From: Gammaproteobacteria bacterium
GTDB taxonomy: Bacteria; Pseudomonadota; Gammaproteobacteria; Steroidobacterales; MnTg04
Length of the DNA stretch: 46,221 bases
Direction of reading: 5' to 3'
Assembly: GCA_027292775.1 (NCBI GenBank)
Contig: JAPUGL010000057.1
Location: forward strand, 1-46,221
Below are positions 17,700-38,169 of this stretch, in pieces. Made by a program: the position numbers and the translations under genes. The notes beneath the pieces are model-generated. The model had not been told where the DNA came from, did no database searches, and saw only the letters and a program-made list of their open reading frames with translations. How positions within the stretch are numbered: position 1 is the first letter of the stretch; each line of letters opens with the position of its first letter.

Positions 17700-18715
17700 G
17701 TGCTCGAATATTGTCCATCCTGCATGCGCGAAATATCGAGTTCCTCAGGGACCGCTCGGCGCTGGGCTGGAATATCCTGTTGCCGGTGCTGCTGGTTGTC
17801 GGCATGGGCGTTATTTTTTCGGGCGATGGCAGGGCCATGTTCAAGGTCGCGGTACTCCAGGAGTCCGAAGTGGTTGACGTAACGGCGCACCCCTTCCTGC
17901 AAACGCGGTACATCGATTTCTATGCAGTCAGCGACCTGGATGATGCGTTGGCCAAATTGTCACGCCACCAGATGGACATGCTGATCAGTCCCGCCGATCA
18001 ACCACCGCAATTCTGGGTCAATGAATCGGCGCCGAAGGGCTACATACTGGAGAAGTTGATCGCCAGCACCGGCACAAGCGATTTCAGCCGTGGCACGGTT
18101 ACCGGAACCGCGATTCGTTATGTGGACTGGCTGCTACCGGGAATTCTCGGCATGAACATGATGTTCAGTTGCCTGTTTGGCGTGGGTTATGTCGTGGTTC
18201 GCTATCGCAAGAACGGCTTCCTGAAGCGACTGAAGGCGACCCCGCTGACGCCGTTCGAATTTCTAACCGCACAAGTGCTGTCGCGCCTGGTGCTGATTAT
18301 TGGTCTGACGGCGATGGTTTTCGCAGGTACCAGCTACCTGATCGGTTTCAAAACGTCGGGCAGCTATGTCGCACTAATCGTCGTTGCCACGCTGGGCGCG
18401 ACCTGCATGATTTCCACGGGATTGCTGGTAGCGGTTCGCACGGCCAGCGAAGAACTCGCCGGCGGCCTGCTCAATATGATTTCCTGGCCGATGATGTTGC
18501 TGTCGGGAGTCTGGTTTTCGCTTGAAGGAACGCCCCAGTATGTGCAGAAAATTGCCGGCCTATTTCCGCTGACACCACTGCTCAGTGCGGCCCGCCATAT
18601 CATGCTGGATGGGGCGGGCCTGTCTGAGGTGATGCCCCAGGTCATTCAGCTTGCACTCATGACCGTGGCGTTACTGGCGATCGGCGCCTGGTTGTTCCGC
18701 TGGCAAGAAGACTAA
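17696..18715 (+). CDS. ABC-2 type transporter permease
   Basis: A 339-residue membrane protein. A first membrane segment (about 23-38, WNILLPVLLVVGMGVIF) is followed by a long periplasmic domain of roughly 110 residues. Five further hydrophobic segments then run from about 140 to 335. YRKNGFLKRLKATPLTPFEF is the coupling-helix region found in ABC-2 permeases, and FPLTPLLSAARHIMLDG is the usual C-terminal signature. The large periplasmic loop puts it with YhhJ/NatB-like exporters. It is coupled to the ATPase gene by a 4-nt overlap. A long palindrome follows its stop codon. Confidence 0.93.
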   Translation: MSARILSILHARNIEFLRDRSALGWNILLPVLLVVGMGVIFSGDGRAMFKVAVLQESEVVDVTAHPFLQTRYIDFYAVSDLDDALAKLSRHQMDMLISPADQPPQFWVNESAPKGYILEKLIASTGTSDFSRGTVTGTAIRYVDWLLPGILGMNMMFSCLFGVGYVVVRYRKNGFLKRLKATPLTPFEFLTAQVLSRLVLIIGLTAMVFAGTSYLIGFKTSGSYVALIVVATLGATCMISTGLLVAVRTASEELAGGLLNMISWPMMLLSGVWFSLEGTPQYVQKIAGLFPLTPLLSAARHIMLDGAGLSEVMPQVIQLALMTVALLAIGAWLFRWQED

Positions 18716-18719
18716 AGGA

Positions 18720-18874
18720 GCCTGCACGGTAAAAAGTATTCCTACTGCGAAAGCGCCATAACGGTCCATTCTCCCAATCTTTTTCGTTGCATAGAACCAC
18801 TATGCGCCTCAAAAGATTGAAAAACTGCCCTCGCTCTGGCGTTTTCTCGTTGCGGAAATTTCTACCGTGCAGGC
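18720..18874. repeat. 155-bp imperfect palindrome between convergent genes
   Basis: Outer arms GCCTGCACGGTA (18720-18731) and its exact complement (18863-18874) are 12/12. Inside, CGCCA (18754-18758) pairs with TGGCG (18837-18841), CAATCTTTT (18775-18783) pairs with 18811-18819, and GCATAG (18789-18794) pairs with CTATGC (18800-18805) around a 5-nt loop. It fills the gap between the permease stop (18715) and the DUF4389 stop (18899). The 28 bases from 18764 match 36618-36645 in the palindrome next to lpdA at 18 positions, so the two are probably related. Confidence 0.75.
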
Positions 18875-18898
18875 CCCTCTAGTCTTACATCCTATTGA

Positions 18899-34461: not shown

Positions 34462-36579
34462 ATGTCCGAAAAACACGCAGAAACCTTTGCAGCCACGATG
34501 GTCTGGCTCGCGGACAAGCTGGCCGCAAAAGGCGAGACAGGCCAATCCTGCCTCGATCGAGCTGCCGCGGTTTCGGATACCGTGGCAGAGCTGAGCGAAG
34601 ACCAGGCGATAATCAGTGCGGCCGCCCTTTTCCCAGCCATTTCATCCGGCTGCCTGTCGCGTGACCAGGTTGAAGCCAAATTTGGCGTCTCCGTTGCCAG
34701 ACTGGCGGACCAGCTCGTTAAACTGGATCGCACCCGTATCCCGGGCGATATTCCGGAACATGGTGGGCTAGGCGGGGACCAGGCCGAGGCGCTCAGAAAA
34801 ATGTTGCTGACCGTCGTTAGCGATGTCCGGCTGGTGCTGGTTCGTCTGGCAGACCAGCTCTATCAAATGCGCACTTTGAAGAAATCGCCGGTCGCCGAGC
34901 AGCGTCGTGCGGCGACAGAAACGCGGATCGTTTTCGCCCCTTTAGCCAACCGCCTGGGAATTTGGCAACTGAAATGGGAACTTGAGGATCTGGCGTTTCG
35001 CTATCTCGAACCCGAGCACTATCGCCGGATAGCACGTGACCTCCGGGAACGACGAAAAGATCGCGAGACATATATTGGGCGTATACAGACTTTGTTACAT
35101 AAAGAACTGGAAAAAGTGGGAGTCAGGGCAGAAATCAGCGGCCGGCCAAAGCACATCTACAGCATCTGGCGGAAAATGCAGTGCAAGAACCTTGCCTTCG
35201 AACAGGTGTTTGATATCCGGGCGATCCGCATCATGGTAGACAGCGTAGCCGATTGTTACGCTGCGTTGGGCATCGTGCACGGCATCTGGCCATACATTCA
35301 GGGCGAATTTGACGATTACATCGCAACGCCAAAAGAAAATCTGTATCAGTCGCTGCATACGGCGGTCAATGGCCCACACGGCAAACCGCTGGAGATTCAG
35401 ATCCGTACGGCGGAAATGCATCAGCATGCCGAGCTTGGTGTGGCCGCACATTGGCAGTACAAGGAAGGTGGCAAACGTGACAGCGCTTTTGAACAGAAAG
35501 TTGTCTGGCTGCGCCGTTTGCTGGAGCCGGTTAAGAACGACACAAGCGACGAAGATTTTCTGAGTCGCGTACAAAGCGAAATATTCGAAGACCGAATCTA
35601 TGTCATCAGCCCACGCGGCGATGTTGTCGATCTGCCGATGGGCGGCACGCCACTGGATTTTGCCTACCACATACACACCGATATCGGACATTGCTGCCGG
35701 GGCGCCAAGGTCAACGGGAAGATGGTTCCATTAACCTACAAACTGGCCAATGGCCAGCAGGTCGAGATTTTGACCGGCAAGGAACCCAGGCCCAGCCGTG
35801 ACTGGCTGATTACGCAACTCGGATTTCTGGCTTCATCACGCGCCCGGGTCAAGGTTCGTAGCTGGTTCAGGCGACAGGACAAGGAACAAAATCTTCGACA
35901 GGGCCGCGCAATGCTGGACCGGGAACTGTCGCGGTTGGGATACAAGAAATTCGAGCACGAAAAACTGTCCCGGTTGTTGCATTTTGGTACCCCGGACGAG
36001 ATGTACATTGCGCTGGGCACCGGTGAAATAACCGTTATGGCCGTTGCCGGTGCGATCCAGAGATTCGAACAACCGGCAGAAAAATTTACGCCGAAAGCGC
36101 GGAAAACCCAGCCTAGTACTCGTACAGGTAAAGGAAAGGTGAGCATTCAGGGTGTTGGCGATCTGATGACAGGATTCGGACGCTGTTGTCAGCCCGTTCC
36201 CCCGGAGCAGATTCGTGGATACCTGACCCAGGGACGAGGGGTCACGATCCACCGGGACGATTGTGGCAATCTCCTGCGTTTACTGGCGAAGCGGCCGGAG
36301 CGAGTCCTCGACGTATCCTGGACCAGCACAGAGGAGGACCTTTATCCTGCCAGCATCAGCGTTCGGGCTTATGACCGGGCGGGACTCGTCAAGGATGTAA
36401 CGACATTACTGGCCGATGAAAAAATTCGCATTTTCAGCCTGGACACTTTGACTGATTCAGTACACAACACCGCCGAAATTCGATTGGGCATAGAAGTCAA
36501 CGGCCTGGACAAGCTCAGCCGTGTTTTGCACCGCCTGACATCCCTGGCCAATGTCGTTAGCGCAAAAAGAAACCCCTGA
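34462..36579 (+). CDS. relA: GTP pyrophosphokinase RelA
   Basis: A 705-residue ribosome-associated (p)ppGpp synthetase. The N-terminal hydrolase domain is degenerate: the HD metal motif is replaced by AAALFPAISSG. The synthetase domain (about 215-350) has GRPKHIYSIWRKM, the EFDD signature of RelA-type enzymes (about residue 282, versus RFKD in SpoT) and YQSLHT. A TGS domain (about 377-440), a zinc-finger region with GRCCQP, and an ACT domain (about 626-705) follow. It is therefore a synthetase-only RelA. Full length for the family (E. coli 744). It ends against a palindrome shared with lpdA. Confidence 0.97.
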   Translation: MSEKHAETFAATMVWLADKLAAKGETGQSCLDRAAAVSDTVAELSEDQAIISAAALFPAISSGCLSRDQVEAKFGVSVARLADQLVKLDRTRIPGDIPEHGGLGGDQAEALRKMLLTVVSDVRLVLVRLADQLYQMRTLKKSPVAEQRRAATETRIVFAPLANRLGIWQLKWELEDLAFRYLEPEHYRRIARDLRERRKDRETYIGRIQTLLHKELEKVGVRAEISGRPKHIYSIWRKMQCKNLAFEQVFDIRAIRIMVDSVADCYAALGIVHGIWPYIQGEFDDYIATPKENLYQSLHTAVNGPHGKPLEIQIRTAEMHQHAELGVAAHWQYKEGGKRDSAFEQKVVWLRRLLEPVKNDTSDEDFLSRVQSEIFEDRIYVISPRGDVVDLPMGGTPLDFAYHIHTDIGHCCRGAKVNGKMVPLTYKLANGQQVEILTGKEPRPSRDWLITQLGFLASSRARVKVRSWFRRQDKEQNLRQGRAMLDRELSRLGYKKFEHEKLSRLLHFGTPDEMYIALGTGEITVMAVAGAIQRFEQPAEKFTPKARKTQPSTRTGKGKVSIQGVGDLMTGFGRCCQPVPPEQIRGYLTQGRGVTIHRDDCGNLLRLLAKRPERVLDVSWTSTEEDLYPASISVRAYDRAGLVKDVTTLLADEKIRIFSLDTLTDSVHNTAEIRLGIEVNGLDKLSRVLHRLTSLANVVSAKRNP

Positions 36580-36582
36580 GGT

Positions 36583-36741
36583 GAAAGCTCTGATCTATAC
36601 ATGAACTCGTATCCTGCGTCCAAAATATCCAGCTTCAGCGTTGCAAAGCTTCTCAATAGCTAGCTATTACGTGCACTTCGCGCCTTGAATCTGAACATTT
36701 CGGATCACAATCTACTTCCCCATGTATAGACCAGAGCTTTC
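36583..36741. repeat. 159-bp near-complete palindrome filling the relA-lpdA gap
   Basis: Arms 36583-36603 and 36721-36741 are 21-bp inverted repeats with one mismatch. The exact centre (36662) is a perfect 14-bp palindrome AATAGCTAGCTATT (36655-36668). The bases between also pair along most of their length, with many mismatches being transitions that become G-U pairs in RNA. It occupies nearly the whole gap between the two convergent stop codons: the right arm ends at the base before the lpdA stop and the left arm starts 3 nt after the relA stop. It shares 18 of 28 positions with 18764-18791. Confidence 0.8.
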
Positions 36742-38169
36742 TCATTTATTGATCGCGTGGATCGCCCTATCATCCGCCGCCAGGGCCGCTTCGTGTAGCG
36801 CCTCGGACAGAGTCGGATGACCGTGTATTGTCCGTTGAAGATCTTCGGCGCTGGCTGAAAACTCCATCGCCAGGACCGCCTCCGCAATAAGCTCGCCGGC
36901 CATCGGACCAGCGATATGTACACCGAGTATTTCGTCGTCATTTCGCGCGGCGATGATTTTTACCAGGCCCGCAGCCATCTCCATCGCTTTCGCCCGGCCG
37001 TTTGCTGCAAATGAAAAAGTGCCGACCTTGTAGGCTCGCCCGCTTTTTTTGACTTCTTCCTCGGTCTTGCCAACCCAGGCAATTTCTGGGGCCGTGTAAA
37101 TAACAGACGGGATGGTGTTGTAATTGACTTCGCTGATTTCGCCGGCAATCAGGTCGGCGACCATTACGCCCTCTTCGGATCCTTTGTGCGCGAGCATGGG
37201 GCCGCGGACCAGATCGCCGATCGCCCATACATTGGCGACATTCGTGCGGCATTCATCGTCCACTTCGACAAACCCGCGTGAGTCGGTCTTCACGCCACAA
37301 TCCTTCTCGAACAAATCAACGCTGTTAGCCTTGCGACCGACGCAAACAATCACCTTGTCGACTTCGACGTGGTGTTCGCCCTTATTATCGACATAAGACA
37401 ATTTTATTCCTGACTTACCGTGTTTAGCGCCGTTGACTTTCGCACCGAGGCGAATGTCCAGGCCCTGCCGTTTGAACTGACGTTGCGTGTCCTTGGCGAT
37501 CTGCCGGTCAATCATGAACAGAAAATCGTCCATCGCTTCGAGCACGACCACCTCGGCGCCCAGGCGCTGCCAGACACTACCAAGTTCCAGCCCGATTACG
37601 CCGCCACCGATTACACCTAACCGCCTTGGTACGGCGTCAAACTCCAGCGCACCCCAGGAATCGACCGTGTTCTCGTCATCGAAAGGAACCTGCTTGAGTT
37701 CCATCGGAACCGAGCCCGAGGCTAGAATTACGTTTTTACCGCTCAGAATTTCTGCCTTGCCGCCGTGTGGCGTGAATTCTACTTTGAGATTTTTCAGCAA
37801 GCGGCCACGACCCTGCATTCCTGTGACCTTATTCGCTTTGAACAGCGCAGCGATACCACCAGTCAGCTGTTTCACGATGCCTGCCTTACGCTGCTGCATC
37901 CTGGCCAGGTCGACCTTGATCGGGCCAGTGCCTATGCCATGGGCTGCAAATTCGTGTTTGGCCCTGTGTACCAACTCCGATGATTCCAGAAGCGCCTTTG
38001 ATGGTATACAGCCGGCGTTCAGACAAGTGCCGCCATAGGACAGGCTGCCGTCGCGGTTCTTCCAGTCGTCTACGCAGGCAACCGTCATGCCAAGCTGGGC
38101 CGCCCGAATGGCAGCGACATAGCCGGCCGGACCGGCGCCAATAACGACAACGTCAAAATTCTTGCTCAT
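36742..38169 (-). CDS. lpdA: Dihydrolipoyl dehydrogenase (E3)
   Basis: A 475-residue FAD enzyme that reoxidises dihydrolipoamide of the 2-oxoglutarate dehydrogenase complex. FAD-binding IGAGPAGYVAAIRAAQLG at the N-terminus, redox pair in GGTCLNAGCIPSK, NAD-binding VIGGGVIGLELGSVWQRLG, and the C-terminal HGHPTLSEALHEA with the catalytic histidine. The ATG at 38169 has an AAGGGGAGAG ribosome binding site. It is the third gene of sucA-sucB-lpdA, 34 nt after sucB, which points to 2-oxoglutarate dehydrogenase rather than pyruvate dehydrogenase. Confidence 0.97.
   Translation of the reverse strand: MSKNFDVVVIGAGPAGYVAAIRAAQLGMTVACVDDWKNRDGSLSYGGTCLNAGCIPSKALLESSELVHRAKHEFAAHGIGTGPIKVDLARMQQRKAGIVKQLTGGIAALFKANKVTGMQGRGRLLKNLKVEFTPHGGKAEILSGKNVILASGSVPMELKQVPFDDENTVDSWGALEFDAVPRRLGVIGGGVIGLELGSVWQRLGAEVVVLEAMDDFLFMIDRQIAKDTQRQFKRQGLDIRLGAKVNGAKHGKSGIKLSYVDNKGEHHVEVDKVIVCVGRKANSVDLFEKDCGVKTDSRGFVEVDDECRTNVANVWAIGDLVRGPMLAHKGSEEGVMVADLIAGEISEVNYNTIPSVIYTAPEIAWVGKTEEEVKKSGRAYKVGTFSFAANGRAKAMEMAAGLVKIIAARNDDEILGVHIAGPMAGELIAEAVLAMEFSASAEDLQRTIHGHPTLSEALHEAALAADDRAIHAINK

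Follow-up and report, generated by a model that had tools for sequence, protein, structure and literature searches.

What is the palindrome that separates the convergent genes relA and lpdA in this gammaproteobacterium: a mobile element, a terminator serving both transcripts, or a structured 3′ UTR? The original prediction offered all three. Here we follow the sequence from its position in the window (the whole 46,221-nucleotide stretch of DNA that was analysed) to its copies, ends, insertion sites and folding.

A palindrome occupies the relA–lpdA gap

An imperfect 159-bp palindrome at 36583–36741 takes up the entire gap between relA (34462–36579, plus strand; RelA/SpoT family, TIGR00691) and lpdA (36742–38166, minus strand; dihydrolipoyl dehydrogenase, TIGR01350). 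The gene families and stop codon positions agree with the original description of this fit, as the lpdA stop (36742–36744) directly adjoins the palindrome and the relA stop (36577–36579) lies 3 nt before its start. The 21-bp arms, 36583–36603 and 36721–36741, differ at 1 of 21 positions, as had been noted. A perfect 14-bp palindrome (AATAGCTAGCTATT, 36655–36668, without strand) is likewise present in the hairpin loop region, as seen in the sequence and its folds, half a base off the exact centre that it had been assigned. Copies and empty sites delimit the whole element; the minus strand, the one with the G-U pairs, is taken as the forward orientation of the family. Copy comparison assigns the left terminal inverted repeat in this orientation to 36721–36741 (minus strand; GAAAGCTCTGGTCTATACATG, family consensus GGAAGCTCTGATCTATTCATG) and the right one to 36583–36603 (plus strand; GAAAGCTCTGATCTATACATG).

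The element is repeated in its own genome and in relatives

A search of the genome, a 2.07-Mb draft assembly that is 79% complete, identifies 7 full copies with 73–86% pairwise identity over the aligned element. In total, we find 49 near-full-length copies, from the same genus, including the genomes G001, G002 and G004, and from a second genus of another family (g17), in which matches number up to 40 in a single genome. Across an evenly drawn sample of the order, the element occurs in 15 of 396 genomes and 6 of 72 genera. Its length in the 49 copies is almost always 159–161 bp, and intact copies carry no gene, so that the family is short, non-coding and multi-copy, as in an IS5-group MITE. These numbers bear out the mobile palindromic element, the first of the options originally listed, and they dispose of the possibility that the palindrome is single-copy, unstructured and unconserved, as the 7 copies in its own genome and the dozens in relatives are all structured.

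In short forms of 59 bp both ends are retained but the middle is missing, and single forms of 75 bp and 43 bp also occur. One type of short form may have arisen by deletion between GGGCG repeats. The 59-bp forms of G001 and G002 lie at L144:2965-3023, L146:2243-2301, L147:2013-2071, L148:2010-2068, L150:2043-2101 and L151:2065-2123. The L144 locus of G001 was considered as a 2-kb autonomous element and turned out to be an isolated single end together with a 59-bp short form. In the draft genome G045 of genus g17, about 40 matches are spread over many contigs, with at least two fragments close together on C15 and on C418, which suggests a large expansion with nested or tandem copies. Separately, G034 and G021 have a seemingly identical insertion (TTTGCTAG...CTAGAAGC; L104:1472-1637 and L094:523-688), and some copies would therefore be older than species splits.

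Ends, target duplications and empty sites

Copies from the same genus end in terminal inverted repeats of about 18 bp, GGAAGCTCTGATCTATTC, and the g17 copies in GGAGCC/GGAACCTCTGATTTATTC. Exact 4-bp YTAR duplications (CTAG/CTAG, CTAA/CTAA and TTAG/TTAG) surround intact copies. A first reading from 7 copies had pointed to an IS630-like duplication of TA; the comparison of 49 copies gave YTAR. Orthologous empty sites with a single YTAR exist for the insertions L107, L112, L180 and L193 (in G021), as expected for an IS5-group MITE.

At relA–lpdA the duplication has decayed beyond recognition, the left site (36742–36745, minus strand) reading ATGA, which includes the lpdA stop TGA, and the right site (36579–36582, minus strand) reading ACCT. 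The gap itself is without the element in three relatives (L009, L010 and L011). In the first two of these, the TAA stop of lpdA lies within a TTAA tetramer at the position of the left duplication, and this TTAA is the likely original target.

Insertion sequences with matching ends

Genomes of the same order contain complete insertion sequences of 1.15–1.2 kb that encode an IS5-family transposase (NF033581; DDE_Tnp_1 plus DUF772), have ends like those of the MITE over 15–24 bp and are flanked by YTAR duplications. Terminal inverted repeats are thus common to the MITE and an autonomous IS5-family element, and YTAR is the known target of IS5 (PMC10359306). The L268 element reads CTAG|GGAAGGTCTGATCAATTC...GAATAAATCAGAGCTTCC|CTAG, and the first 15 bases of the L292 element are those of the consensus repeat. 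In one genome, G321, the MITE (88% to a g1 copy) occurs together with an insertion sequence of this type.

No matching IS5-type transposase was found in the palindrome's own genome (G000, 79% complete) or in the other draft assemblies of g1 and g17, and a search of g1 and g17 for DUF772 and DDE_Tnp_1 returned no matching element. The copies there may therefore be relics, or the insertion sequence may have been lost from the drafts, as draft assemblies lose repeats. A resident insertion sequence in g1, if present, would bear GGAAGCTCTGATC ends. The interior of the MITE has no similarity above shuffles to the interiors of the insertion sequences, so the MITE did not arise from them by simple deletion.

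RNA folding and alternative explanations

Both strands fold far beyond their shuffled counterparts, none of 200 shuffles equalling either fold, and the lpdA-sense minus strand does so much more strongly (−83.5 kcal/mol, z −10.55) than the plus strand (−50.6 kcal/mol, z −4.92). This asymmetry arises because the G-U pairs are on the lpdA-sense strand, which upholds the earlier remark that many mismatches are tolerated as G-U in RNA. The selection on a transcript at which it was said to hint is not well supported by orientation, substitutions or consensus mismatches.

Such selection would fit a domesticated 3′-UTR hairpin, kept on the lpdA-side transcript, whose long stem protects the sucAB–lpdA mRNA, processes it through RNase III or ends it. 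Besides the very stable lpdA-sense fold, the same strand folds better in 47 of 47 well-aligned copies, distinct substitution events in pairs within the genus favour G-U over A-C (26 against 9, p 0.006), pairing is restored by a double change in 11 single-copy cases, and ERIC and Correia hairpins are precedents for an effect on mRNA (PMC2229807; PMC10969869). However, the event counts are not independent because repeat copies have common ancestry, and the bias is not significant among changes private to a single copy in the genus (G-U 12, A-C 7), among pair changes in g17 (31 and 20) or among mismatches of the family consensus (8.5 and 3). Where the neighbouring genes run in the same direction, moreover, the stable G-U-rich strand is antisense to them in 20 of 29 cases, and the relA–lpdA gap is empty in close relatives, so nothing essential resides at that place. 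We therefore regard a domesticated hairpin as unlikely. Inheritance of the strand asymmetry from the founder element is the simplest reading, and a minor effect on transcripts may exist at some sites.

A bidirectional terminator for relA and lpdA would explain why a hairpin sits exactly in the gap of two convergent genes. Yet the 36400–36950 region contains no terminator-like site on either strand, that is, no short G+C-rich stem with a T run behind it; the stem here is far longer than that of an intrinsic terminator and no T run lies next to it, the element is absent from relatives, and other copies lie between genes of the same direction. This second of the original options is accordingly very unlikely. 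A REP/REPIN- or ERIC-type repeat of independent origin has the same general plan, a short intergenic palindrome in many copies, but the 4-bp YTAR duplications and the ends common to IS5-family insertion sequences exclude such membership and leave it a negligible probability. The Rfam 15 models also give no match to the element, only a chance-level hit outside it. ERIC, YPAL and Correia/NEMIS are TA-target elements; the duplication here is a 4-bp YTAR and not a TA dinucleotide, and membership in that group was rejected as well.

The palindrome is best explained as a copy of a non-autonomous IS5-group MITE, with a probability of about 0.95 for the reading as a whole. The long hairpin follows from the element being palindromic by build, and any effect on lpdA mRNA would be incidental.

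The window also contains a second palindromic repeat, built to the same plan but unrelated, at 18712–18884, immediately following the TAA stop codon of a gene for an ABC-2 transporter permease. Its ends are AGGAGCCTGCACGGTA / TACCGTGCAGGCCCCT, its minus-strand fold reaches −96.7 kcal/mol (z −11.8), and several copies occur in its own genome, with others in G001–G004 and G229; it is probably a second MITE family. Both palindrome families have one strand that folds better in every copy, and G-U and A-C mismatches of the consensus do not differ significantly.

Insertion sites and stop codons

Of the 49 copies, 22 lie exactly against the stop of an adjacent ORF, compared with 26 of 112 control YTAR sites taken from non-coding DNA or stops at the same loci (Fisher p 0.008), an approximately twofold higher frequency that is suggestive only, given the mechanical ORF calls, the small number of controls and the apparent orthology of L094 and L104. 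Four copies have stops on both sides, the tetramer being common to two convergent stops. Background YTAR sites lie within ORFs in 249 of 361 cases; nearly all copies lie between ORFs.

In the mechanism that we propose from these sequence comparisons, an IS5-family DDE transposase encoded elsewhere would recognise the ends of about 18 bp, move the element as DNA in trans and join it at a YTAR tetranucleotide, which would thereby be duplicated. That site may coincide with a TAA or TAG stop, or with two overlapping convergent stops. Because YTAR can be a stop codon, duplication would spare the neighbouring genes and copies could survive at gene ends such as those of lpdA and relA, which may be why stop codons are favoured. 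The relA–lpdA copy itself has diverged and no longer bears its target duplication, and it resides in a genome in which no matching transposase was found; it is therefore probably a fixed relic, an old and now immobile insertion. A further-reaching version holds that the family is specialised for stop codons: YTAR would supply TAA/TAG stops, including overlapping convergent ones, the duplication would rebuild a stop on each side so that gene ends are colonised undamaged, and long 3′-UTR hairpins favoured on one strand would alter mRNA fate in several lineages. We consider this version unlikely.

A striking palindrome at a locus of central metabolism and the stringent response is thus explained as transposon debris, and such hairpins should not be taken for terminators or conserved RNAs. 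The stop-codon pattern offers a simple explanation, open to testing, for the persistence of such elements in gene-dense genomes. Our analysis also documents an IS5-group MITE family, with its ends, target, empty sites and candidate partner insertion sequence, in uncultured gammaproteobacteria.

Comparison with known systems

The family is new, with no earlier description found in the literature searched, and its kind, the IS5-group MITE, is well known. The ERIC, YPAL and Correia/NEMIS families are similarly palindromic intergenic repeats of about 105–170 bp that form long hairpins in transcripts (PMC2229807), but they differ in sequence and host, and the present family has a 4-bp YTAR target. 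The IS5-family insertion sequences of the NF033581 (IS5_4) type (L268, L272 and L292) match the MITE in their ends over 15–24 bp and in their YTAR duplications, and differ from it in their length of 1.15–1.2 kb, their encoded transposase and their dissimilar interior. MITEPsy1 of Pseudomonas syringae, a 100-bp IS5-related element derived from ISPsy2, has been caught transposing (PMC3189936). Like the relA–lpdA family, it is non-coding, has terminal repeats of about 18 bp starting GGAAGGTCTGA and has an IS5-family partner, and its 4-bp duplication of CTAG or YTAA resembles YTAR. In contrast to the 100-bp MITEPsy1, whose transposition has been seen, the family described here is about 160 bp long, mostly palindromic and of other sequence, and would have moved, to judge from its copies and their insertion sites.
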